Origin: Nostoc sp. HK-01
Lineage (GTDB): Bacteria; Cyanobacteriota; Cyanobacteriia; Cyanobacteriales; Nostocaceae
DNA: 64,000 nucleotides
Assembly: GCA_003990705.1 (NCBI GenBank)
Contig: AP018318.1
Location: 3,103,501-3,167,500, forward strand
Direction: 5' to 3'
The notes below the pieces were generated by a model. That model had not been told where the DNA came from. It made no database searches and saw only the letters and a program-made list of their open reading frames with translations. The first letter of the stretch is position 1. Every line of letters begins with the position of its first letter. This document shows positions 1 through 37,065 of this stretch, piece after piece. The position numbers were made by a program, and so were the translations under genes.

Positions 1-59
1 AGTGATTAATGTTAAGAGATAGCTAAGATAACCTTATAAAAGCTAGGTAATACCCAGTT

Positions 60-98
60 AAAAACTATCATCCCGCCTGTTATAAGATGATAGTTTTT
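60..98 (-). terminator. Intrinsic terminator of the RTX lipase gene
   Basis: A perfect 13-bp inverted repeat (60-72 with 86-98) around a 13-nt loop begins a few bases past the lipase stop codon. Read on the minus strand it ends in a run of five T, as in a Rho-independent terminator. The mirror A run means it could also act on the other strand. Confidence 0.7.
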
Positions 99-103
99 GA
101 GAT

Positions 104-1438
104 TTAGACGGTGACGAAATAGCTGGCGCTCAGGCTGAGGCTGGTTGAGCCTTGAATGATAGCCACTAGTTCCAGACTACTTTCATTCAGGAATAGGGCT
201 GTACCTGTAGGTAAACCAGTCGGTACAGATCCCAAGCTATAGCTAGATATAGCACCAGATAATTGGATTGTGTCTTCTAAGGTATTAAAATCAGTAATTA
301 GGGCATAGTCGCCTAGTCCAGAAGTGCTGGTATTCCCATCGCTGTAGAAGAAACCTGTGGTAGTACCGACGACAAAGCGATCGCTCCCAAGACTCCCAGT
401 CAAGCGGTCAATTTCACCGAAACCTCTACCAGATGCCGCATCTGCGCCGGTGAGTACGTCGTTTCCGTCATCACCAAATAAGCGATCGCTCCCAGTCCCA
501 CCAAAGACAGAATCATTACCGCGTCCACCATTGAGGCGATCGCTCCCACTATCGCCATACAATAAATCATTGCCGTCGCCACCTGTAATCCGGTCATTGC
601 CGGCATTACCCCGGATGGTATCATTAGCGGCACCACCCGACAGAACATCATTACCAGTTGTACCTAAAAGATTGAGGGCAACAATTACTTTATTATTGCT
701 CGTGCTGTTATAGTTCTCACCCAGAAACCCACCATTGAGGACTGTATTTAAATTCAAGAGAGTGCCGTTAGACTGAGTAAAGCTATTACCTTGAAGTAAC
801 TGTGTATACAAAGTATGGGCATAGCTATGATTACCCACAAAACTAATTTGTCCTGGTTGGAAAAGGTCATTCCAGTTAATATAGAGGTCTAAGGTAGCCA
901 ATCGCGCATCATAACCGAGAGTTTCACTGGTATGTATGGCTGTCACGCGAGTCGCATCTGTGGGATCTAAGCGATCGCCTGTTGCTGCACCTTCAAATTC
1001 TGGCCCGGCTGGATCTAGTCCAACAATTTGCCCAATAGAACGCCCAGTAGAAGCACGATAAGCAGAGCCAGCAAACCCCCCTACGTGCGCCCCTAAACTG
1101 TGACCGATGAGATTAATATCAGTTGCATCTACGCCGCTATTTCTTAAGTAAGTAGCTAACTGATTACCTACATCCCGCGTGTTGGCAGCAGCAGTTGGAT
1201 AATATAAGGAACTAGCCCCTGCTTCCCAATCTACCAAAATGATGTTTGCATTCGACTCGCGCTGTCGAATGGTTTGGGCAATGTTTACTACCCAATCTGC
1301 GGGTGTATAGTTATTACCAGCGTTCCCAGCAGTGCTTTGATAGCCGTGAATAATCGTGTATGTCGGTGCATCGGTATTAATCCGCCCTGAACGGTTAATC
1401 GCACCGTTACCCCAAATATTAAAACTGACTTGAACCAT
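104..1438 (-). CDS. Secreted RTX lipase (pancreatic-lipase fold plus hemolysin-type calcium repeats)
   Basis: The first half matches the lipase family PF00151: the nucleophile elbow GHSLGAH, an LDPAGP stretch holding the likely acid residue, and an HSYAH segment holding the likely catalytic His. The second half carries tandem RTX nonapeptides of the GGxGxDxLxG type, which bind calcium and normally go with type I secretion. There is no N-terminal signal peptide, as expected for RTX exoproteins. The open frame runs up to a GTG at 1489, but that start would sit against a strong hairpin (1490-1523). I therefore prefer the ATG at 1438, which precedes the conserved start of the lipase domain. No transporter genes are adjacent. 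The substrate (triglyceride, phospholipid or other ester) cannot be told from sequence. Confidence 0.85.
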   Translation of the reverse strand: MVQVSFNIWGNGAINRSGRINTDAPTYTIIHGYQSTAGNAGNNYTPADWVVNIAQTIRQRESNANIILVDWEAGASSLYYPTAAANTRDVGNQLATYLRNSGVDATDINLIGHSLGAHVGGFAGSAYRASTGRSIGQIVGLDPAGPEFEGAATGDRLDPTDATRVTAIHTSETLGYDARLATLDLYINWNDLFQPGQISFVGNHSYAHTLYTQLLQGNSFTQSNGTLLNLNTVLNGGFLGENYNSTSNNKVIVALNLLGTTGNDVLSGGAANDTIRGNAGNDRITGGDGNDLLYGDSGSDRLNGGRGNDSVFGGTGSDRLFGDDGNDVLTGADAASGRGFGEIDRLTGSLGSDRFVVGTTTGFFYSDGNTSTSGLGDYALITDFNTLEDTIQLSGAISSYSLGSVPTGLPTGTALFLNESSLELVAIIQGSTSLSLSASYFVTV

Positions 1439-1489
1439 AAGAAAAATGTTTGTTTTTTGGGCATAAATTTTTTCACAGCAAAAATTCAC

Positions 1490-1523
1490 TTATTTGATTG
1501 CGGAGATATCTGCAATCAAATAA
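1490..1523. repeat. Strong hairpin in the 5' leader of the lipase gene
   Basis: TTATTTGATTGC (1490-1501) is perfectly complementary to 1512-1523. Pairing continues inward with one G-U pair to a 15-bp stem closed by a 4-nt loop. It lies about 50 nt upstream of the chosen lipase start. There is no T run, so a regulatory or RNA-processing role is as likely as termination. Confidence 0.6.
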
Positions 1524-1599
1524 ATGTCAGAATTAAAAATTATTTGGCGCTGCTGAATTTATTGATAAAAATGATTTTACTTATGATGAAAATCTTTGT

Positions 1600-1627
1600 A
1601 TAGACGTGATTGCGCAACGTCTCTACA
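1600..1627. repeat. Interspersed palindrome of the AGACGT...ACGTCT type
   Basis: TAGACGT and ACGTCTCTA surround a GATTGCGCA core, a slightly degraded form of a short palindrome that recurs between genes in Nostoc-like genomes (recalled, not searched here). Confidence 0.45.
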
Positions 1628-1975
1628 CGGATTTATATCTCAATTCAGCAATATTCAGAAATTTAAATAATTGAAAAACTGATTTTGCTATAGACAAATT
1701 AAACTGATTACTTAATTTTTTAGTAAAAATTAGTATAAGTTTAATTTAAAAATAAATAAAATTTTATTTATGCTTGTACTAATTTGAACAATAATTACGA
1801 TGGATGGATTTCTGAAAAACTTAATCCATCAACCTTGCAAAATCCAAAATAATATTACAGGTGCGATCGCCTGTTGAATATGCAAAATCGCCCAAAAAAT
1901 TTATACCTACAATTTTATCTATGCAGGCTCACAATCACAGCAGAGACACAAATTTAAAATCTCCTAGTGTGAGAT

Positions 1976-2797
1976 TTACCAACTTTGTTCCAGTTGTCGA
2001 TGGGGCGAAACCTGTTGAGGCTTTTCGTGAGAAATCGCTTTGAGTTTGGAGGTGAATGACTCGGAGCGATCGCTTGTTTGGGGCGTAAAGCGGTCAATTG
2101 GGGGATGATTGACTGTAGATGTCAGCAGTTTTGGCTGTTTGTCAGGGTTTGATGATGGAAGACGGCTGGGAAGCATTGGTTGTGAATTCAGCCTGGGTTT
2201 AACCTCGGTGGCTGGAAGGCTCAATGTTGAAGATGCCAAAATGTTTTTGACTCGTTGACTATCTACTCGGCTCGATAATGTCTCTGTTCGTTTGTAGCTT
2301 TGCTGATATTTATCATCAACAGCAGACGATGAGTGTGTTGTTGCCAAATTGGCAACATTCGCTACATTTTCTGAGCTAATATCTTCTTGAGCAGGTGGTA
2401 AGGCTGGTGTAGTCAGCGCCGTTAATATTTCTGGGAATTTGCTACAAATCAGGCGTTCAAATTCCATATTGAAATGATATATAGGCTGCTGTCGGCGTTG
2501 CCAAAATGCCATAATTTGCTGTACAGAAATGGCTTTATAACGACCTTGATAAAGCGCTTCAATGACTGCTAGGTGCAGCCAATCTAGAGGATATTGATTT
2601 TGCCAACGGTTAACTAGCTCAGTGGCACTATAGCCGCTGAGGTCGAAACTGTAATGAATAAGTAGAGCAGCTGCCAATTCGGCAGAAGTTTCTGGCGTTT
2701 TGGTAAACATGGGACTATTGGCTTGCGGCAACAGGTATAAATTTTCGACCCATCGCCTATAGCCTAGCGTGTTTTTAGCTATAGGGTTGGTAAACAA
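1976..2797 (-). CDS. Conserved cyanobacterial hypothetical protein
   Basis: I do not recognise a named family. The first 130 residues look like a compact helical domain rich in Trp, Tyr and Leu, with RRWVEN near residue 15 and FWQRRQQP near 100. The rest is a low-complexity Ser/Thr/Pro/Gln tail that is probably disordered. The frame opens with TTG at 2797. An ATG at 2710 is an alternative start, but the residues between them look protein-like and an in-frame stop lies shortly upstream. The next gene upstream on the same strand is the SLH protein, 41 bp away, so co-transcription is possible. There is no signal peptide or membrane segment. Confidence 0.6.
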   Translation of the reverse strand: MFTNPIAKNTLGYRRWVENLYLLPQANSPMFTKTPETSAELAAALLIHYSFDLSGYSATELVNRWQNQYPLDWLHLAVIEALYQGRYKAISVQQIMAFWQRRQQPIYHFNMEFERLICSKFPEILTALTTPALPPAQEDISSENVANVANLATTHSSSAVDDKYQQSYKRTETLSSRVDSQRVKNILASSTLSLPATEVKPRLNSQPMLPSRLPSSNPDKQPKLLTSTVNHPPIDRFTPQTSDRSESFTSKLKAISHEKPQQVSPHRQLEQSW

Positions 2798-2838
2798 GAG
2801 TTTCCAAGTGGATAAGCAGTGTTTTTCATTTTACTTGG

Positions 2839-4923
2839 TCAACTCTTGGCTGTCGAAACAATATAGGGGGAATTAATATTTGGTGTGCGGTTAATAGCTA
2901 CTAAGGCTTGATAAACCATTGCAGCTACTTCCGCCCTTGTGGCTTCTCGCGTGGGGGCGAGTAAATTAGGCTGGGGATAGTTGACAACAATTCTTTGTTG
3001 TGTAGCAGTTGCCACCGCTTTTTGGGCATAGTCAGGAATAGTATTACTGTCAGTGTAAGGAAGTAACATATTGCTTTGGGCTGCGGGTAAGCCGAGACCG
3101 TTGACCAGAGAAACAATCACTTGTAATCTTTGCACATTTTGATCGGGGCGGAAGGTGCGATCGCTAAATCCACTCACAAAACCACCACTTGCCGCAATTT
3201 GTAAAGCTTTGTATGCCCAAAAATTCTGGGGGACATCAATAAATTCAATGGCTGGGCGTTTGGGCGCTGGGTTAAAAGCCGCCGCCACTAAAGCTGCATA
3301 TTGGGCGCGAGTCATGGGTTTATCTGGCTGGTAACTACCATCAGCGAAACCGTGGGTTAAATTCAGGCTGGCTAAGGCGCGAATAAATGGTTCCGCCCAG
3401 TGTCGGTTTAAGTCGGCAAAGGTAGGAACTTCGGCATCGGGACTGACAATATAAGGTGAGGCGATCGCTTTTTCTTTGCTGTTGGCGACTAATGCCTGAT
3501 ATATTAATGCGGCCATTTCACCGCGGGTAATTTCTCGCAGTGGTTCTAATCGGTCAGATTGGGGATAGTTAACGATGATGAGTTTTTGTGTAGCGGCGGC
3601 GACTGCATTAGTAGCATAACTGGGAATTTGGGCGCGATCGCGGTATACACTTAATACATTCGGAGTGCCACCGCCAAATTTTAAACCATTAACAATAGAT
3701 ACAATTGCCTGTACTCTAGTGAGATTATTGCCTGGGCGAAATGTCCCATCAGGAAACCCGCTAATAAATCCGGCATCCGCAGCACTGGAAATAGCTGAAG
3801 CTGCCCAAAAATCAGGTTTCACATCGGGAAATTTGCTAGATTTGCTGCTGGGTAACTGAAAGGTTTTCGCCAGCACAGCCGCATATTGGGCGCGAGTAAT
3901 TGGGGCGTTTGGGCCAAAAGTGCCATCAGGAAAACCACTAATTGCGCCTCGACTGACTAAGGCTTGCACAAACACTGCCGCCCAGTGTCCCACTAAATCA
4001 GGAAAACTGCTACTCCCGGTGACTATTCTCGGACTATCTTCGGTAGCAGCGATGAAATTTACCTGTCCTTTGACTAAAGTCGGATTTAACTGATTACCTG
4101 CGGAAATGAGGGGTTGGGCGGCAGCATTTTGTAAATCAAACTCGCCATTATCTTGAAAGATATTCGCGCCAGCATCTTGGCTATTACCTAAATCTGGCAT
4201 AGCATTGGCATTGACTAACAAACCACCTTGGGCATTTTTGATAATTAAATTTTGCCGTAATACCGGACGAGCATCACGAGACAGTGCGATCGCAGTACGA
4301 TTTTCTGATAATTTATTATTGGCAATTAATGGGGCGGCTGAGTCGGTAACTGCTATCCCCAAAGGATTTTTTTGAAACGTGTTGCGTAAAATTTCCCCTT
4401 TACTATTACGCGCCATAAACAATCCACTGGCAGCATTTTGGACAAACACATTATCTAAAATGGCTGCTTTGGCATTACCTGTCGTAAATATTCCTTCCCG
4501 TCCACAATTCAGCAATGTATTGTTAGCCATGTAGGGAATTGATGATTCTATCCATACCCCAGTGCCTTTAGGAATAGGATTAGTCACACTCACACCCATC
4601 AAACTGGCATCACCCAGCAGCAATAACGTAATATTCTGCACACTAAAACTTGGGCTTTGATATTCCCCACCCCCAGAAATGATAATTCCTGCGCCTTTAT
4701 TAACTTCATTACCAATAACTGTTACTCCCGCAGTTAACACCAAGGGAAACTGTTCACCATTGGCGGCGCTATAATTGCCAGGTGCCAACTGAATAATTAT
4801 CGGTGTTGTGGTTCTTAACGCACGGGTGAGGGTTTTAAACGGACTCAACCGTGAACCATCATTTGTATCTTTACCTGTTACAGGGTTGACATAGAGTGTG
4901 GCCACGAGGGTGGAGTTTACCAT
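2839..4923 (-). CDS. DUF1565 right-handed beta-helix protein with two S-layer-homology triplets
   Basis: Residues about 8-290 match the DUF1565 family: YVNPVTGKDTNDG start, LAPGNY, then repeated short strands typical of parallel beta-helix proteins. Six SLH motifs follow as two triplets, at roughly 307-480 and 502-677. Each motif shows the F.D...HWA...I..L...G...GFPDGTF.P...TRAQ pattern or a degraded third-repeat version. Each triplet is followed by SPYIVS, so the second block is probably a tandem duplication of the first. SLH domains bind cell-wall polymers, which points to a surface or periplasmic protein. No classical signal peptide is visible at the ATG, which is odd for an SLH protein. 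The ligand of the helix domain is unknown. Confidence 0.85.
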   Translation of the reverse strand: MVNSTLVATLYVNPVTGKDTNDGSRLSPFKTLTRALRTTTPIIIQLAPGNYSAANGEQFPLVLTAGVTVIGNEVNKGAGIIISGGGEYQSPSFSVQNITLLLLGDASLMGVSVTNPIPKGTGVWIESSIPYMANNTLLNCGREGIFTTGNAKAAILDNVFVQNAASGLFMARNSKGEILRNTFQKNPLGIAVTDSAAPLIANNKLSENRTAIALSRDARPVLRQNLIIKNAQGGLLVNANAMPDLGNSQDAGANIFQDNGEFDLQNAAAQPLISAGNQLNPTLVKGQVNFIAATEDSPRIVTGSSSFPDLVGHWAAVFVQALVSRGAISGFPDGTFGPNAPITRAQYAAVLAKTFQLPSSKSSKFPDVKPDFWAASAISSAADAGFISGFPDGTFRPGNNLTRVQAIVSIVNGLKFGGGTPNVLSVYRDRAQIPSYATNAVAAATQKLIIVNYPQSDRLEPLREITRGEMAALIYQALVANSKEKAIASPYIVSPDAEVPTFADLNRHWAEPFIRALASLNLTHGFADGSYQPDKPMTRAQYAALVAAAFNPAPKRPAIEFIDVPQNFWAYKALQIAASGGFVSGFSDRTFRPDQNVQRLQVIVSLVNGLGLPAAQSNMLLPYTDSNTIPDYAQKAVATATQQRIVVNYPQPNLLAPTREATRAEVAAMVYQALVAINRTPNINSPYIVSTAKS

Positions 4924-26570: not shown

Positions 26571-27065
26571 TTACACCATCTCAAACTCTAATTGATGACT
26601 CTTGAGAAAATCATGGGTGAAATGATCCACCACATTTGTATCAGCCAGTTCTAAATTGTAAAAATCTACAACTTCATGATCAAAATAAGGCCCAGCGTGC
26701 CAAGTTCCCTCATTTAACTTAATAAAACAATTCCCTGGAATCCGAAAAGCAGCAAGTTCTTCTAAAACTGGTTCATCCAATTCATTATGAGGAGGACAAA
26801 CAGCAATGAACCAATCCTTTCCTTCTAAAGAACCTAAACATTGAGTACATTTTACATGACGCGTAATTTTATTAAACTTTCGTCCGCGCTTTTCTAGACG
26901 CATAATATAAAATCTTGGAGTACCATTTTGCAGATTCAATTGTGCATCTTCTGTATCAAATTGCTTACCATCTGTGCTTGCAAAAATCACTTGTCCATAA
27001 CGCCGAAAATTCTCTGCGGTGACTAATTCTGCTTTTAATTGTTGAACTGTTTGTGATGCACTCAT
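26571..27065 (-). CDS. Ureidoglycolate lyase (AllA)-family protein
   Basis: The 164-residue cupin-like protein has the family landmarks RYGQVIF, FIAVCPP, AFRIPGNCFIKLNEGTWHAGPYF and VVDFYNLELADTNVVDH. AllA releases urea and glyoxylate from ureidoglycolate in allantoin breakdown. No other allantoin genes are nearby, so the true substrate may differ and I leave the symbol empty. The DoxX-like gene lies 12 bp upstream on the same strand, so the two form an operon. Confidence 0.75.
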   Translation of the reverse strand: MSASQTVQQLKAELVTAENFRRYGQVIFASTDGKQFDTEDAQLNLQNGTPRFYIMRLEKRGRKFNKITRHVKCTQCLGSLEGKDWFIAVCPPHNELDEPVLEELAAFRIPGNCFIKLNEGTWHAGPYFDHEVVDFYNLELADTNVVDHFTHDFLKSHQLEFEMV

Positions 27066-27077
27066 AATATTAAAAAC

Positions 27078-27518
27078 CTACTGTTCTAATTCTTGAGGAA
27101 TAAGTGATTTAGGAATTAGGGAAGCTTGGATTTCTTTATCTGAAGGTCTTGTATACCACCAAGCCCAAGCGATTAACACTGCTTGTAATGGCAATCTAAT
27201 TGCTTGAACCCAAGGTGAATCTGAATATGGTATGGTTTCAATTTTAATATGATTAACTGCCATGTTGATATTGGCAGGAAAAACAGCAATAAATAGTAGC
27301 ACCAGTCCCCAAGCAGCAGCTTGACTTACAGGCGGAACTAATAATCCAATACCACCTAAAATCTCATAAAAGCCACTGAGATAAACTAATCCTAAAGGAT
27401 AGGGCAGTTGTGGCGGCATTATTTTGACGTAAGGTGCGGGTATGGCAAAGTGTGTAATGCCCACGATGATGATTGATATTGCCAAGATGACACGAAAGAG
27501 TTCCTTACGTCTGTTCAT
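27078..27518 (-). CDS. DoxX-like four-helix membrane protein
   Basis: Four hydrophobic segments, with the DoxX-type features VGITHFAIPAPYVKIMPPQLPYP, LVYLSGFYEILGGIGLL and FPANINMAVNH. The frame opens further upstream at a TTG (27590). The ATG at 27518 (MNRRKELF) puts a positively charged end directly before the first helix, so it is preferred. DoxX relatives are small redox-linked or transport-related membrane proteins with no agreed activity. It is the first gene of a pair with the AllA-like gene. Confidence 0.7.
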   Translation of the reverse strand: MNRRKELFRVILAISIIIVGITHFAIPAPYVKIMPPQLPYPLGLVYLSGFYEILGGIGLLVPPVSQAAAWGLVLLFIAVFPANINMAVNHIKIETIPYSDSPWVQAIRLPLQAVLIAWAWWYTRPSDKEIQASLIPKSLIPQELEQ

Positions 27519-27612
27519 GGTTGAGGCTGATTTTATACTTGCGCTTACCACTTCAGTTTGCTGATATGAGGTGAATTTGTCTTCAATCAATGGTAAGAAA
27601 CATCACCAAATA

Positions 27613-27676
27613 TTAGTTATATTTTAAAACTTGCGATCGCTCCCCAATCTAATCCTGTAAAATTTCATCGACTAAC
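27613..27676 (-). repeat. Relic copy C of the hydrolase-gene 3' end
   Basis: 64 bp align without gaps to the last 21 codons, including the stop, of the hydrolase gene at 31471-31534, with about 49 of 64 identical by hand count. Read on the minus strand it still encodes LVDEILQD, a stop, then IGERSQVLKYN and the same TAA. It keeps the HIP1 octamer. It is about 80% identical to copy B at 29341. Confidence 0.75.
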
Positions 27677-28088
27677 TACCTCCTTCACCCGCCGCTAGTA
27701 ATTTCTCGGACTCCACGACAAAACTCTGTACAGTTTGTGTTCAACGGGATTGTTAGACCGTCTTGACTTTGCGAAGTTTGACACTACCACCTTCAAAAAT
27801 CTGCATCGTTAGCTGATAGCCTTCCATCAATAACATTCCAACAAGCGGTTCTGAATCAGCTTCGTCCACTGGGATTGTTACCAAGGCGCTATCCCAGACT
27901 ACAGCAGCTTCGTAGACGTTGAAAACACACTCACTGCCATCTCCAAGAATTGCCCGTCCTCGTCTTTTCCATCTCAAGTTTAACTCAGCGATCGCATCTG
28001 GAGGCAATGACAGCCAACCATTGAACCTATCCCACTAATACCAGCAATATGATAATCTGCTGTTGATGACGGTAAGTTGTATTAGGGT

Positions 28089-28439
28089 ATGGCGGGGAGA
28101 TTTGAAGGGTTAAGTGATCTTGAGTGGAAGCTGTTTGAAGATATATTTCCCAAGGAAGCAGAAAAGAAAGGGCGGGGAATGCCTCATGCACCATTTCGTC
28201 ACGTACTGAATACCCTACTGTATATGTTGATAACAGGCTGTCGTTGGTGTGATGTTCCCACTGGAGAGATCTGGGCATCCAAGAGTGCCGCGCACAGATG
28301 GCTACAACGTTGGCACAAAGATGGCACATTAGATAATCTACAAGCGCGTATATTAGGCATTGCAGAAGAAAAAGGATTAATCAACTGGAACTACGGCGCA
28401 GTGGACGGGTCTTTTTCCCCCTGGGAAAGGTGGCGGTGA
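28089..28439 (+). CDS. IS5-family transposase, N-terminal frame
   Basis: The frame encodes the DUF4096-like N-terminal domain of IS5-type transposases (LSDLEWKLFEDIFP, GRGMPHAPFRHVLNTLLYMLITGCRWCDVP, SKSAAHRWLQRW) and ends with the first catalytic Asp in AVDGSFSP. Near 28412-28421 a TTTTTCCCCC run precedes the stop. Skipping one base there (or gaining two) joins this frame to the downstream one. That may be programmed frameshifting or transcript slippage, as known for IS427-like elements, or a simple mutation. Confidence 0.85.
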   Translation: MAGRFEGLSDLEWKLFEDIFPKEAEKKGRGMPHAPFRHVLNTLLYMLITGCRWCDVPTGEIWASKSAAHRWLQRWHKDGTLDNLQARILGIAEEKGLINWNYGAVDGSFSPWERWR

Positions 28440-28911
28440 AGGGGTTGCGTATGGTCATAAGGGTAAAGGAATTTTGATACATACGCTCACAGAGGGGAAC
28501 GGGATGCCCTTAGCTAATCGCACAACCCCTGCTAATGGTAATGAACGAGAGCAGGTTCTACCACTATTAGATAGCGTTAAAGTCAAAACGAATAAACCCG
28601 GTAGACCTCGTAAACGAGTTAAAGTTCTTGCGGCTGATAAAGGTTACGATTCTAAGGATAAACGTGCAGCCTTGCGTAAACGTGGTATCAGGCCACAATT
28701 ACCTAAGCGTGTTTGGAAGACCAAGAAAAATCGAGGTAGACCAATTAAAATGTCAGTTCCACGCTTTCAACAGGAACGCTGTTTTGCCTGGTATCAAAGA
28801 AAATATCGCCGTCTCGTTGTGCGATGGGAGCGGATCTCTGCTTGCTTCAATGCTTTTCTTTCTCTAGCCACAATTCATATCTGGATTAACAGAATTTTAT
28901 TAGTGGGATAG
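28411..28911 (+). CDS. IS5-family transposase, C-terminal frame
   Basis: This frame is open from the TTTTTCCCCC run and has no good start of its own before 28474. It encodes FPPGKGGGEGVAYGHKGKG, then LAADKGYDSK with the second catalytic Asp, and RRLVVRWERISACFNAFLSLA with the catalytic Glu. It is probably made as a fusion with the first frame, giving a DDE transposase of about 270 residues. All catalytic residues are present, so the element may be active. Confidence 0.8.
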   Translation, partial: LFPPGKGGGEGVAYGHKGKGILIHTLTEGNGMPLANRTTPANGNEREQVLPLLDSVKVKTNKPGRPRKRVKVLAADKGYDSKDKRAALRKRGIRPQLPKRVWKTKKNRGRPIKMSVPRFQQERCFAWYQRKYRRLVVRWERISACFNAFLSLATIHIWINRILLVG

Positions 28912-29022
28912 GTTCATTGAAACCTGTGTCTACAATCGCATCTTTGGTAAAAACTTTGCCATCAAAGCGCCGAATTGAAAGTGGAATAATTGGTTCAAAT
29001 TCTGCATTGACTACTCCAGTAA

Positions 29023-29295
29023 TCATGCAGTTCTCCGATTCCGTCCGCCAAATCGACGAAAATGGCGAGAGCCAATACGAATTATCCAAATTTGAGCATC
29101 GGGGTGACGGATTTCGAGGCGATCGCAAGCTACAATTTCGCTCTTGTCAATTTCAAAGTCACCAGTTTCGAGATCAATTGCTACAATTTTGCCTTCATTC
29201 TCAGCCTCAACTTGAGGTTTTATCTGAGTTTCATAGATATAATCACCTCGTTGGGCAAATTCCTCTTTACTGTAGCGGGGTTGTCGTACTGTCAT
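29023..29295 (-). CDS. Small protein paired with the aspartic protease
   Basis: This 90-residue protein has a conserved pattern seen beside clan AA proteases in cyanobacteria (recalled): an N-terminal YSKEEFAQRGDYIYET segment, then VEAENEGKIVAIDLETGDFEIDKSEIVACDRL and PDAQIWIIRIG. Its stop overlaps the protease start as ATGA, which indicates translational coupling. It could be the substrate, inhibitor or antitoxin-like partner of the protease, but no function is established. The gene is intact although the partner is split by the IS. Confidence 0.75.
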   Translation of the reverse strand: MTVRQPRYSKEEFAQRGDYIYETQIKPQVEAENEGKIVAIDLETGDFEIDKSEIVACDRLEIRHPDAQIWIIRIGSRHFRRFGGRNRRTA

Positions 29296-29340
29296 CGTTG
29301 CAATTTTCGGTTTGTCTATGGCTTTATTTTAAGCTGATGC

Positions 29341-29414
29341 CGATCGCCTGTTAGTTGGATTTTAAAACTTGCGATCGCTCTCTGAGCCAATATTGTTAAA
29401 TTCCATTAACTAAC
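29341..29414 (-). repeat. Relic copy B of the hydrolase-gene 3' end
   Basis: 74 bp align without gaps to 31461-31534, with about 57 of 74 identical by hand count. The match includes 10 bp beyond the stop codon. On the minus strand it reads LVNGI, a stop, then QYWLRERSQVLKSN and the TAA, against LVNPILQNWIQERSQTSKSN in the intact gene. It starts 9 bp from the stop of the NERD helicase gene. Confidence 0.8.
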
Positions 29415-29422
29415 ACCCAAAC

Positions 29423-31318
29423 TCAAGATCTAAAACGTTGGAGTTTCTCAAAATTTGTCCACGTTCTACCAAAATCTTCGAGTATTGGATTGGAACAGAC
29501 AACGGTTAGATAGCTTCCCTCTGTGTGTCGTTTTAGCCGACTCATTGCAACATAAGCAGACTCAAGATCTGTATCTTCAGAAATAGCAATGACTATATAG
29601 CGAGCTTCCCACCCCTTAAAACTATGGATTGTACAAGCTTTGATTCGAGCATCACCCATAAAAAATGCCATCTTTCGGCTCTTCTGTTCTTGGTGATCTG
29701 CATCAAAGATATGAATAACATTGAATTTTTGTTCGTTGAGAAGTGATACACAGGCTAGCCCCAACTGATGAGTTGGAAGCAGAAGAACAATATCTGGGTA
29801 AGCTATAACATTAGGAGTTGCTAAACCAGGCATTTTGAGTACAGCAGTGACGCACTCTCTTGCTATTGACTCAGAAGAAGCCAGTTGCAGCCAACTCAAG
29901 TGAGTAGGATATAAATCTAATTCAGATGCTTGTGCTGTTGGCAAGTTAAGTTTCAAGTTAGGTAAGTACTTGTTTGCAAAGTCTCTCAAGTACTTAATAA
30001 GTGAATGAGGCATTCGGTAACATGTCTCTAGTTGTACCCAGGGGCCGCTAAATCCTGCACCATTCATAGCATCTTCCGTCCAACTCCTAGCTCGTTCATA
30101 GAGATCTTGAGTCTCATCAGCAACTAGTACCATTTCACCACCTGCCTTCAGGACTCGTCGCAGCGTGTTCCACCAGATAGGGTTGTAGTCCTGTCCCTCA
30201 TCGACCAGAATGGTATCATATTGGGTAATTTTTGTCCCTGCAATGTCAATTGCCTTATTAGTTAATTCAACAATCTCAGTTTCTAACACTTCAGAAATAT
30301 CTGACCTCTCTCGCCAAAGTGCGTTGTATTCATTATTTAAGCCTGCCTCATTACAGATGACTTGTTTACACCATTCATGAAAGTGGAGCCATGTAATGTA
30401 ACGATTAATTGTCTTACCTGGCAGCGGATAGCGAACAGCTAAATCTCGGAGATAATGCCATAACGTAATGTTGAATGATACTACTAATGTGTCTTTGCGT
30501 TCAATCGATAACTGAGCGGCTCTTGCTGCTAGTACCAATGATTTACCTGAACCAGCAGCACCACGAATACGTCGATACCCAGATATCGTGCGACCTGTTA
30601 CTAGTTGTCGTTGTTTAGCATTAAGCTCTAGAGGTTGCCGTTGAGTAGCTGAAAAATCTGGCTCAACTAACCAACCTCGCAAAGATGTAGCAAGTTCAGG
30701 CTTCATTAATTTAGAACTGCGCCATCTTGCAGTAGGAAAAACAGTTTCTAAGTCATTTGATAGGAGAGCATCACTCCCTGCTAGTGGGTGGTAAGATTTG
30801 GCTTTCCCAAGGAGGTTCCGCACTTGATAGAAAGGAAAAAACAACTCCTCTAGAGTGATAGTATCTGCGGTTGTCACTATCACTCCAGCCGTAATCAAGG
30901 AAAGATAGGCAGTCGATTGATCAGTGCAATTATTATTAATTTGTGGACAGTATAAGTTAGCAATGCTGTTCTTATAAAGAAGAACTTTTTCAATAGGATT
31001 GTCTTTGATCCGAAAATCTTTTCCATCTTTCGATGTTGCCCATAGCTCTGGGTTATTAGATTCAGACGATGAGTACCTTACGTAATAAGGCATTGCCGTT
31101 AAATCCCAGTCTTTAACCTCAAAAACAGCGATGCCAACCTTCGGATTCAAGAGAACGAAATCTGGACGTAAGCCATTCAGGTGAGGCTGAATGTAGATCT
31201 CCCAATCTTCTGAAAGATTCTTATTGAAGAATTCAAAGACTTTTTTCTCTCCTACGGTTAGAGGAGTTCTGAGATTATCTAGTTCATGCCGTGAAGGTGA
31301 AATAAATCTATTTGTCAT
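29423..31318 (-). CDS. NERD-domain UvrD-like helicase (candidate defence protein)
   Basis: The first 110 residues look like a NERD nuclease-related domain (LRPDFVLLNPKVGIAVFEVKDW, with D and ExK of the nuclease fold). A superfamily 1 helicase core follows: Walker A RGAAGSGKSLVLAARAA near residue 250, Walker B ILVDEGQDYNPIWW, VADETQDLYERA, LETCYRMPHSL, HSFKGWEARYIVI and YVAMSRLKRH. Proteins of this architecture occur in defence islands and some act against phage or plasmids; that role here is inferred. The gene lies between two copies of the hydrolase 3' end and upstream of the protease pair. The length of 631 residues looks complete. Confidence 0.85.
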   Translation of the reverse strand: MTNRFISPSRHELDNLRTPLTVGEKKVFEFFNKNLSEDWEIYIQPHLNGLRPDFVLLNPKVGIAVFEVKDWDLTAMPYYVRYSSSESNNPELWATSKDGKDFRIKDNPIEKVLLYKNSIANLYCPQINNNCTDQSTAYLSLITAGVIVTTADTITLEELFFPFYQVRNLLGKAKSYHPLAGSDALLSNDLETVFPTARWRSSKLMKPELATSLRGWLVEPDFSATQRQPLELNAKQRQLVTGRTISGYRRIRGAAGSGKSLVLAARAAQLSIERKDTLVVSFNITLWHYLRDLAVRYPLPGKTINRYITWLHFHEWCKQVICNEAGLNNEYNALWRERSDISEVLETEIVELTNKAIDIAGTKITQYDTILVDEGQDYNPIWWNTLRRVLKAGGEMVLVADETQDLYERARSWTEDAMNGAGFSGPWVQLETCYRMPHSLIKYLRDFANKYLPNLKLNLPTAQASELDLYPTHLSWLQLASSESIARECVTAVLKMPGLATPNVIAYPDIVLLLPTHQLGLACVSLLNEQKFNVIHIFDADHQEQKSRKMAFFMGDARIKACTIHSFKGWEARYIVIAISEDTDLESAYVAMSRLKRHTEGSYLTVVCSNPILEDFGRTWTNFEKLQRFRS

Positions 31319-31460
31319 TAAGGTCTAACAACGCTGAGATAGATTGAGACCAAGGGAAATCAGAATATACGAAAAACTTTTTTTACACTTTTGCTCATAT
31401 ATTATATCGAATTTTTCCGTATAACTATTCTTACCAATATATAGAATTAGAGTCTGGTGC

Positions 31461-31534
31461 TGATCGCCTGTTAGTTAGATTTGGAAGTTTGCGATCGCTC
31501 CTGTATCCAATTTTGTAAAATCGGATTGACTAAC
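31461..31534 (-). repeat. Intact reference copy A of the hydrolase-gene 3' end
   Basis: This is the real 3' end of the hydrolase gene (last 21 codons plus 10 bp). It is the sequence echoed at 29341-29414 and 27613-27676. It contains a HIP1 octamer, conserved in all three copies. Confidence 0.8.
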
Positions 31535-32376
31535 TCTGGTGCTTCATCTTGGGGGCAATGCCCTACTCCTTCTAAGGGAATGAATTTTTCTACTGACGGA
31601 TAATTAGCTAACTCTCGACCTAAATGTATTGGTTCCCAAGGGTCTGCTGTTCCCCATAAAATAATTGTCGGACAAGGTAGTTGCGGAAGTAAGTCTTCTG
31701 GTAACGGCCCTGTGGAGTATGAGGTAAATGCCAAAAACACAGCCACAGCACCAGGATCTTTGGCGGGTGCGATGAGAATATCGACTAATTCGTCTGTGAC
31801 TGTCTCTGCATTAGCGTAAGCTTGCAGCAAAATTTTCCGCACTGTTTTTGGTTTGGCGACTTGATTAAAAAAGAATTGCCCAATTGGTTTAATAGACAAT
31901 ACCCGTTGTAAAAGTGGCGCACCTATACGCCGAGTCCAAGGTAAAGTGGCGCGTTTGCGATCGTGTAATAATCGCAAAGAACAGTTAATTAAGGCAACTC
32001 CTAAAGCTATATCTGGGGAACTGACTGCGGCTTGCATGGCGACAATACAGCCAATGGAATTTCCCACTAAAAAAGCTGGTTCACCCACCACTTCACGGCA
32101 AAAGTCTGCTATTTGCTGTCCCCACATTTCTAAGGTGTAAGCAATTTTTTCACCCGGCTGAGGTTTGGCAGAACCACCGAAGCCAATTAAATCTATGGCA
32201 TAAACCCGACAAGTTTGGGCTAGTACTGGTATGTTTTTACGCCAATGCCACCATGAGGCTCCAAAACCATGCACTAAAATAACGGCAGGCCCACTAGTTC
32301 CTTGAGTTTGATAGGAAATCGGGAACCCCTGCCACATCCAAGTTTTTGCGGTTAAAGCAGTTGTAGAAGTATTCAT
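31471..32376 (-). CDS. Alpha/beta-fold hydrolase
   Basis: Alpha/beta hydrolase of 301 residues. It shows VILVHGFGASWWHWRKN, YAIDLIGFGGSAKP, the nucleophile elbow GNSIGC near residue 106 (not the more common GxSxGG, but within the pattern), TIILWGTADPWEP with the acid residue, and GVGHCPQDEAPELVNP with the catalytic His. It resembles pheophytinase-like and haloalkane-dehalogenase-like plant and cyanobacterial hydrolases. The substrate is not known. The last 21 codons recur twice downstream as relics. Confidence 0.85.
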   Translation of the reverse strand: MNTSTTALTAKTWMWQGFPISYQTQGTSGPAVILVHGFGASWWHWRKNIPVLAQTCRVYAIDLIGFGGSAKPQPGEKIAYTLEMWGQQIADFCREVVGEPAFLVGNSIGCIVAMQAAVSSPDIALGVALINCSLRLLHDRKRATLPWTRRIGAPLLQRVLSIKPIGQFFFNQVAKPKTVRKILLQAYANAETVTDELVDILIAPAKDPGAVAVFLAFTSYSTGPLPEDLLPQLPCPTIILWGTADPWEPIHLGRELANYPSVEKFIPLEGVGHCPQDEAPELVNPILQNWIQERSQTSKSN

Positions 32377-35748: not shown

Positions 35749-37065
35749 CTAAAAAATAAAGACCACTCGCAAATCCCATTCTTTATCTTCACGGACAATT
35801 TCAATTTGTCGAATAAATTCTCGCAGGTAAAAGCGTCGTTCTGCTTCTGATAAATCTAACCAAAATTGCGGAATGGAAACGGCTTGAGCTACAGAACGTA
35901 GATTAACTGGGGGAAGTGTCGCCAGCTTTGCTTGGAGTGCAGAGATTTCTGTGCGGAGTTTGTACTCTCTAAATTTTGCTGTTTCTGCATCTAAAATGCC
36001 AGTTTCAATTAAAGCAGGTAACTGAGCGAGAATTTCTTGTTGACGAGCGATCGCATCTCCTAAACTATTTTTTACTGTATCCAGTTCAGGAGAATTCATT
36101 CCGGCTACTGCTAATGGTAAATCACGGCAAACTTTAGCGATCGTAGATTCTAAAATGTCTTGATAGGGAATAGCTCGACACTTGGGATTGAGAGGACAAC
36201 TAATAGGACGTAAATAAAGGTACTCTTTGTCTTGATAGCGGCGAGTAACACGAGTGACTGTCGTATGAGATTGACATTCACCGCAGACAACTAACCCAGC
36301 TAAAGAACGCGGCGCACTTGCAGTTCGAGACGGTAAGCGGCTATTACGGCGTAACAGTCGGTCAATTTGGGCGGCTTCTTCTTTAGAAAGAATAGCAGTA
36401 TGAGTATCAGAGATAATTTCCCCATTGAGATAAGCCGTATCTCCCCGATAAACAGGATTAGTTAACCAGCGTCGCCCAGTAGTGACAGAAATTTTCTTTC
36501 CGTATTTTTTTGCCAAGTAACGCACTGCGCCGCGCAAGGAACCGTAGAGTAAAAAGTTATCGAAAAACTCTTTCACCACTGGGGAGGTACTGCGGTCAAT
36601 AATGTATTTTCCTTGACCACGGCGATAACCGTAGGGTGTTTTTCCGGGGGGAGGTGCTGCTTCTAAACGATTGCGGGCGTGTCCTTGGCGGATGCGCCGA
36701 CTTCGTTGTTGATGTTGGATTTCTTGGAGTAATTTCAGTAATTCAGCCCGGAAGTGGGATTGCTCTGAGGTGTAGGATTGTTCGGTAGCAATTATAGCTA
36801 TACCCATCGCTTCTAATTCATTTAAGCGATCGCTTACTTCTTCTACCGTATCTCCCAATTCTTCCAAGCGACGCACCAGCAAACATTCTACTAGTTCATT
36901 TTGGCAGTCTGAGATTAGTTGTTGTAACTGCGATCGCTTTGTGTATCCATAGGTATCTCTCTTAACTAAATCTTCATAAACTCGTTCTACATCCCATTGC
37001 CAATTAATGCTTTGAGGCACAGATTCTAAGAGAGGATCATAATAAATGTAAGCAATAATGTTCAT
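35749..37065 (-). CDS. Large serine-recombinase-family protein lacking the catalytic serine motif
   Basis: The middle and C-terminal parts are typical of large serine recombinases: a recombinase domain (PPPGKTPYGYRRGQGKYIID, VRYLAKKYGKKISVTTGRRWLTNPVYRGD), a zinc ribbon (VVCGECQSH ... ISCPLNPKC), and a long C-terminal coiled coil. The N-terminus has LVRRLEELGDTVEEVSDRLNEL of the resolvase fold. It starts, however, IIAYIYYDPLLESVP where the catalytic YxRxS should be, so no nucleophilic Ser is visible. It may be a DNA-binding relative that does not cut, or it may use a different residue. It resembles XisF-type proteins in general layout. At 438 residues it is not truncated at the C-terminus. 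Confidence 0.75.
   Translation of the reverse strand: MNIIAYIYYDPLLESVPQSINWQWDVERVYEDLVKRDTYGYTKRSQLQQLISDCQNELVECLLVRRLEELGDTVEEVSDRLNELEAMGIAIIATEQSYTSEQSHFRAELLKLLQEIQHQQRSRRIRQGHARNRLEAAPPPGKTPYGYRRGQGKYIIDRSTSPVVKEFFDNFLLYGSLRGAVRYLAKKYGKKISVTTGRRWLTNPVYRGDTAYLNGEIISDTHTAILSKEEAAQIDRLLRRNSRLPSRTASAPRSLAGLVVCGECQSHTTVTRVTRRYQDKEYLYLRPISCPLNPKCRAIPYQDILESTIAKVCRDLPLAVAGMNSPELDTVKNSLGDAIARQQEILAQLPALIETGILDAETAKFREYKLRTEISALQAKLATLPPVNLRSVAQAVSIPQFWLDLSEAERRFYLREFIRQIEIVREDKEWDLRVVFIF

Follow-up and report, generated by a model that had tools for sequence, protein, structure and literature searches.

Why should the 3' end of a protein-coding gene recur twice downstream of that gene, with accessory genes between the copies? 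The question is raised by a stretch of 64,000 nucleotides from Nostoc sp. HK-01 (C1:3103501-3167500 of genome G000, 7.52 Mb; hereafter, the window), in which the last 64 bp of an alpha/beta hydrolase gene (hereafter, the tail) are present in three copies. The answer proposed here is that the locus is probably a cluster of attC sites lacking an integrase (CALIN), which occupies the coding 3' end of the hydrolase gene, was built by the integron integrase IntI at G^TTAGTC from units carrying the tail of their target, and was later reshuffled.

The hydrolase tail and its relics in the window

The features of the locus, with positions in the window and the open reading frames (ORFs) concerned, are as follows:

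31471..32376, minus strand: alpha/beta hydrolase gene, target of the array (ORF; Pfam PF12697, 3.9e-26)
31471-31533, minus strand: last 20 codons and stop codon of the hydrolase gene
31471..31534, minus strand: the gene's own 64-bp tail copy, starting at G|TTAGTC (Leu-Val codons)
29423..31318, minus strand: module 1, NERD + UvrD-like helicase gene (Pfam NERD, UvrD-helicase; PADLOC NERD+UvrD, 2.1e-127)
29351..29414, minus strand: relic tail 1, one in-frame stop
29023..29295, minus strand: module 2, small partner gene of the protease pair (ORF; homologues in the G009 and G008 arrays)
27753..29128, minus strand: module 2, clan AA aspartic protease gene, split by an insertion sequence (IS) into ORF pieces 28886-29128 and 27753-28007
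28024..28914, plus strand: IS of the IS4/5 type, 891 bp, within the protease gene (Pfam DUF4096, DDE_Tnp_1)
27670..27759, minus strand: attC-like site, partly decayed, at the end of module 2; its last base is base 7 of relic tail 2
27613..27676, minus strand: relic tail 2, one in-frame stop
26571..27590, minus strand: far border of the array, DoxX-like and ureidoglycolate-lyase-like genes (Pfam, tblastn)

A sequence-only reading of this DNA had described three gapless copies, with about 77% identity between relics and gene and about 80% between the relics. The 64-bp alignment bears this out: the gene agrees with the 29351 copy at 48/64 positions and with the 27613 copy at 49/64, and the relics agree with each other at 51/64 (75-80% identity overall). 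The further match to the gene, which had been claimed for the copy from 29341 on, was also found, the 29351 copy matching over 73 bases with 81% identity. There are no other good matches in the 7.5-Mb genome. With positions 29341-29420 as the query, the other two copies were retrieved at E-values of 2.5e-11 and 1.9e-9, the next match being 25 bases long (E-value, 0.003), and the 64-position model described below matched this genome exactly three times. In frame, the gene tail reads LVNPILQNWIQERSQTSKSN*, the 29351 relic reads LVNGI*QYWLRERSQVLKSN*, and the 27613 relic reads LVDEILQD*IGERSQVLKYN*. As first described, the stop codon and the highly iterated palindrome 1 (HIP1) octamer GCGATCGC are kept in 3/3 tail copies, and in-frame stops are confined to the relics, one in each.

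The intervening cargo had been recognised correctly as a NERD helicase gene and then a protease pair; the splitting of the protease gene by the IS had gone unmentioned. CATTG (5 bp) is found on either side of this IS, and the transposase is spread over two ORFs. The intact G008 homologue of the window's aspartic protease matches TIGR03698 with 49.2 bits, which is below the cut-off. In agreement with the sequence-only reading, analysis of ORFs and Pfam matches revealed no integrase in either between-tail interval of the window.

Tail-punctuated arrays in a single clade

The hydrolase was used to search 60 relatives and had a match in 60/60 of them (only a distant one in G023 and G050); 35 downstream regions were taken, oriented and scanned for gene-end repeats. 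A 64-position tail model was built from 25 copies and applied with E-value thresholds of 0.001 in the genus and 1e-6 in the family. The model matched three times in G000, twice in G001, eight times in G002 (2/8 elsewhere, on contig C130), five times each in G004 (one match weak and elsewhere), G005 and G009 (two of the matches being neighbouring fragments), seven times each in G007 and G008, and three times in G010; the one match each in G003 and G006 is the gene itself. An array of 2-7 tail copies, the gene included, is present behind the hydrolase gene in 9/11 genus genomes, nearly all of which retain a whole hydrolase gene. These nine have at least two copies with different cargo between them, which supports the earlier proposal that modules were repeatedly inserted at the gene 3' end and carried that end along. 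No array was found in the other two genus members or in 206 further family genomes. In total, 65/217 family genomes matched the model, the 54 outside the genus having one partial match each, except G149. The latter has two partial matches, 61 kb apart and on opposite strands, perhaps belonging to a second hydrolase gene.

Among 80 named loci, at least two copies were found in five, one copy in 49 and none in 26. The five multi-copy loci (Nostoc sp. LEGE 06077, FACHB-280, N. spongiaeforme FACHB-130, CHAB 5844, and the metagenome-assembled genome TH1S01) are five of the nine array genomes, not additional ones. In the hydrolase tree, the nine array genomes, to which the tail-punctuated arrays are limited, form one clade (bootstrap, 94), sister to G003 and G006. 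The far border is common to 8/9 array genomes and is different in G002. No tail was found in plasmids, phages and viral contigs (one of these searches used an exact pattern).

The between-tail intervals number 32, one of which, in G002, crosses a contig gap and was left out of the length figures. The median length of the other 31 is 808 bp (range, 19 to 3044), and the cassettes are mostly 0.6-3 kb long. They are units of one or two genes, a few intervals contain more than one cassette, and the main array ORFs lie on the hydrolase strand, IS transposases excepted. Cassette families are shared among genomes in differing order, and turnover of the cargo is evident. Cargo was assigned by profile scanning of representatives and by BLASTP cluster for the others. 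A toxin-like gene is present in 13/32 intervals: BrnT in 4 (PF04365, 8e-27; paired with BrnA, PF14384), ParE-like in 4 (PF24732), PIN or VapC-like in 4 (the VapC-like matches and one PIN match being below cut-offs) and DUF433/DUF5615 in 1. The aspartic-protease pair occurs in seven intervals, one type being over the TIGR03698 cut-off and one under it (assigned by tblastn and cluster). Further cargo includes GFA, GNAT, methyltransferase, ICMT, cupin, Fic, and GIY-YIG/DUF4357 genes. Far from the array of G002, at C130:16309-17305 (L078), a DUF433/DUF5615-type pair stands between two hydrolase tails, with a gene fragment next to it; when an empty site for this insertion was sought, the genus yielded no close homologue of that fragment.

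The sequence-only reading had named an alternative, namely that the copies are relics of tandem hydrolase paralogues. The copies do lie in the frame of the gene, and 18/26 relics are open in that frame; with three indel-bearing relics dropped, 16/23 are open against 11 expected (p = 0.029), which is weak. However, no copy has recognisable similarity to the gene 5' of G|TTAGTC, no similarity was found beyond the last 64 bp, and the changes in relic tails are not skewed to third codon positions. In the 35 regions, tblastn detected no tandem paralogue, the only distant homologue (25%) being on the other strand in G001. Restriction of the 64-bp segment to full hydrolase genes, which had been put forward as evidence against module insertion, was not observed. 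An origin from paralogues is considered extremely improbable.

It is also highly unlikely that a small mobile element with inverted-repeat ends (GTTAGT...ACTAAC), inserting beside genes, accounts for the segment. The six-base inverted ends of the segment are conserved across copies, but in its own genome it occurs at this one locus only (three copies), without the dispersal of miniature inverted-repeat transposable elements. The pattern GTTAGT-N40-65-ACTAAC has 20 hits in the genome (two of them these segments) versus 51 in the reversed control, and the 5' two thirds of the segment are ancestral hydrolase coding sequence in other genera. Folding of the 64 bp revealed no consensus RNA structure, single folds being mixed (z, -3.0 to +0.8). 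The possibility that the tail itself is an attC site was rejected, as its ends are of opposite polarity.

attC sites, integron integrases and exchange within the tail

Beyond what the sequence-only reading had noted, an integron attC hairpin stands at the end of many modules, and it follows that these modules are, or descend from, integron cassettes. In the 44 rows compared, imperfect palindromes are found directly upstream of many tails; they start like TAACAATCCCGTTGCA and end with GTTAGTC, the TTAGTC of which constitutes the first bases of the tail. The G007 4713 site folds into an R box and an L box, with an unpaired spacer between them and extrahelical bases. Fourteen hairpins were picked by eye from the 44 rows for a pairing test, in which native halves outpaired swapped halves (-18.1 vs. 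-13.4 kcal/mol; p = 1e-4), as they did at the 11 non-redundant sites (p = 5e-5). The pairing of R and L boxes that is asked of a CALIN was found across the 14 sites but not at the window's own site, for which 11/26 swaps pair equally well. A consensus fold of the 14 sites on a MAFFT alignment gave no pairs, the alignment being probably out of register.

A covariance model of attC (R2), built from three array sites, gave 23 matches at E-values up to 10 from 13 sources. Eighteen of these were placed; the remaining five comprise two reverse-strand duplicates of counted sites and three matches with E-values >0.8. Of the placed matches, 12/18 have base 7 of a tail as their very last base (including one at the G002 C130 place), 2 are shifted by 10-11 bases by an 11-bp deletion common to BrnT tails, 3 lie between cargo genes without a tail there, and 1 is partial. 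At least two attC in a row, another mark of a CALIN, are present in several genus arrays, with four full matches (E-values up to 0.09) in G007. The window has one such site (76.6 bits; E-value, 7e-18), whose score is not independent, because the model contains a close relative. Of 12 matches outside the hydrolase arrays, 11 have no repeated flank, and the second locus described below was reached through the remaining one (L117).

An intact integrase was absent, as in a CALIN: no TIGR02249 match exceeded the cut-off in the 11 genus genomes. Strong C-terminal IntI fragments were detected in G006 (128 bits) and G002 (120 and 82 bits). A complete integron, with intI and attI beside the array, was not found, as there are only IntI fragments (attI was not searched for). 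Integrons are already known in cyanobacteria (PMC2426708). TIGR02249 was matched by 46 of the 217 family genomes at an E-value of 1e-20, by 10 of them over the cut-off and by seven of those without internal stops:

Full-length integron integrases in Nostocaceae: G021, G012, G118, G025, G087, G030, G079 (L089-L095)

Many further family genomes have integron integrase fragments only. As an independent test, R2 was applied to six loci of other genera in the family that have an intact integron integrase. It found attC at 4/6 of them (best E-value, 2e-14), so that other members of the family have attC of the same kind next to an intact IntI; of the other two loci, one gave a weak match and one gave none. 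No shared leader after attC was found among 15 sites of four IntI-bearing Nostocaceae loci.

According to the proposed mechanism, IntI, since lost from the clade save for fragments, would have joined attC sites to G^TTAGTC of the hydrolase gene, i.e., the Leu-Val codons 20 residues before its end, which may represent a core site akin to attG. The units would bring a gene piece downstream of the core (the ~64-bp coding tail and some flank), so that the gene would be completed on insertion and the old tail left downstream as a spacer. Further exchange may then have taken place through the tail copies, with joints at the HIP1 octamer or beyond it, and might continue today. The first tailed unit could have arisen from an IntI circle taking the gene end along, or in a polyploid cell whose broken copy of the gene recombined with an intact one.

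The position of exchange was explored in a linkage test with label permutation, using 34 full-length tails of the 44 rows (ten partial ones were dropped). Nine non-gene pairs that share the upstream but not the downstream cassette were compared with 151 background pairs, the pairs not being independent. Similarity was 0.91 vs. 0.82 in columns 0-45 (p = 0.0002) and 0.81 vs. 0.86 in columns 45-64 (p = 0.98). The first ~45 bp of the tail are thus linked to the upstream cassette and move with it, which places exchange within GAGCGATCGCA or beyond, i.e., at or beyond the HIP1 octamer.

This position is what would be expected if homologous or HIP1 recombination alone had been at work, with a gene end duplicated by chance, foreign segments gained and lost through crossing-over at GCGATCGC or between tails, and attC as passengers from cassettes put together elsewhere. 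HIP1 has been linked to recombination (Akiyama 1998 and Robinson 1997, as cited in PMC4390886), and three contexts at the second locus are alike only from GCGAT(C/T)GC on. Moreover, three tail copies break at GCGAT(CGC) into unrelated sequence, namely the G008 gene, one copy of G002 and one of G009, and the G008 hydrolase gene then ends with WIQER*. However, outgroup hydrolase genes lose similarity near the same place, and the break-offs alone are therefore weak evidence; crossovers placed at HIP1 likewise prove little, because no invariant run in the tail is longer than HIP1. Recombination alone also leaves unexplained why attC of different families stop exactly at G|TTAGTC in 12/18 cases, and as a full account it appears rather unlikely.

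It is very unlikely that the arrays are stacked cis-mobilisable elements, i.e., islands left behind by an element with a site-specific tyrosine or serine recombinase that targets the gene end. Direct repeats of a gene end, recombinase-free cargo and a single main locus would suit such islands, but the arrays have the hallmarks of integron cassettes: units of one to few genes, attC hairpins and abundant toxin-antitoxin cargo. Among the between-tail ORFs, some of which were profile-scanned, no such recombinase was recognised, only IS transposases (G000, G008).

Several observations weigh against a CALIN built by IntI. The 5' part of the tail is tied to the upstream cassette, and plain exchange at G^TT would tie it to the downstream one; in pairs sharing the downstream cassette there was no significant excess of similarity (18 pairs, 0.85 vs. 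0.86; 7 non-gene pairs, 0.89, p = 0.14). Plain IntI insertion alone leaves the tail copies unmade, because most cassettes start with the tail end and not with a free TTRRRY. Intact IntI is absent from the genus, and recombination was not observed. A clear advantage of native pairing was lacking in 3/14 hairpins (G000_8325, which is the window's, G002c_4696 and G004_6813). The helicase module and several others have no recognisable attC; none was found behind the helicase gene at 29423-31318, so that the window does not demonstrate an integron origin for that module.

A broader role for the gene end is conceivable, albeit doubtful. The 3' end of the hydrolase gene may be an attachment platform within a working gene, where cassettes with spare last 20 codons come and go at G^TTAGTC and sometimes swap the C-terminus, with HIP1 as a second joint that would sustain movement in the array once the integrase was lost. 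Such swapping is suggested by the G010 gene, which carries a spacer-type tail. The switch lies within GTTAGTCAA and is compatible with a short gene conversion as well as with exchange at G^TT.

A second locus and comparison with known systems

The attC match outside the arrays on C113 of G002 led to a second repeat-punctuated array, located behind an RNase II-like gene.

Second-locus sites: L117/L200 (G002 C113), L223 (G000 C1:6250732), L225, L226, L227, L224

The repeat is ~70 bp long (by eye, up to 100) and ends just after GCGATCGC; with short partial hits excluded, there are 3 copies in G002, 2 each in G007 and G010, and 1 each in G008, G001 and G000. One copy begins at the attC core GTTCGTC. 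A MSNLEQIE.../ParE-like pair, which is present in several hydrolase arrays, is found in G008 at the second locus, indicating that cassette families occur at both loci. The source of the second-locus repeat was looked for and not found. If the platform proposal is true, the second locus would show Nostoc repeatedly making flank-bearing cassettes. Beside an Uma2-like gene, three contexts (L229, L228, L200) share sequence only from GCGAT(C/T)GC onward.

Several known systems resemble the Nostoc arrays. The ilvD-linked integrons of Xanthomonas are sedentary chromosomal integrons or CALINs with a decayed integrase (PMC12444791). Like these, the Nostoc arrays have attC cassettes fixed behind a conserved gene, variable content, a lost or broken integrase and toxin-antitoxin cargo; unlike these, they lie inside the coding end of the gene, with copies of that end between cassettes. 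At attG sites, integron cassettes insert into genomes (Loot et al. 2024, cited in PMC11023631 and described in PMC12901181). The likeness is a GTT-type genomic core outside an array, which in Nostoc is putative; the difference is that Nostoc has a long array in which the target's flank is copied at each unit. Delta-attI-type cassettes (PMC12901181) likewise include part of the adjacent recombination platform, but there the attI piece replaces attC, whereas in Nostoc the target-gene tail follows it. Finally, joints at GCGATCGC recall HIP1-linked recombination in cyanobacteria (PMC4390886); in contrast to the cases treated there, the Nostoc locus is a natural multi-cassette array, in which HIP1 would play a presumptive role. 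No description of tail-punctuated arrays was found in the literature searched, which omits most subscription papers, including the attG paper.

The proposed organisation would show how a cassette array can live in a working gene, the units supplying the missing gene piece, and would account for gene-end relics between accessory genes that might otherwise be taken for junk. It also offers a traceable cyanobacterial toxin-antitoxin cassette system whose integrase is already lost, and the old question of HIP1 as a recombination joint becomes testable at a natural hot spot.

Elsewhere in the window, on the array's side of the genome, positions 35749-37065 encode a recombinase-family protein, whose resolvase match begins at profile position 34, the start of the catalytic domain being apparently missing.

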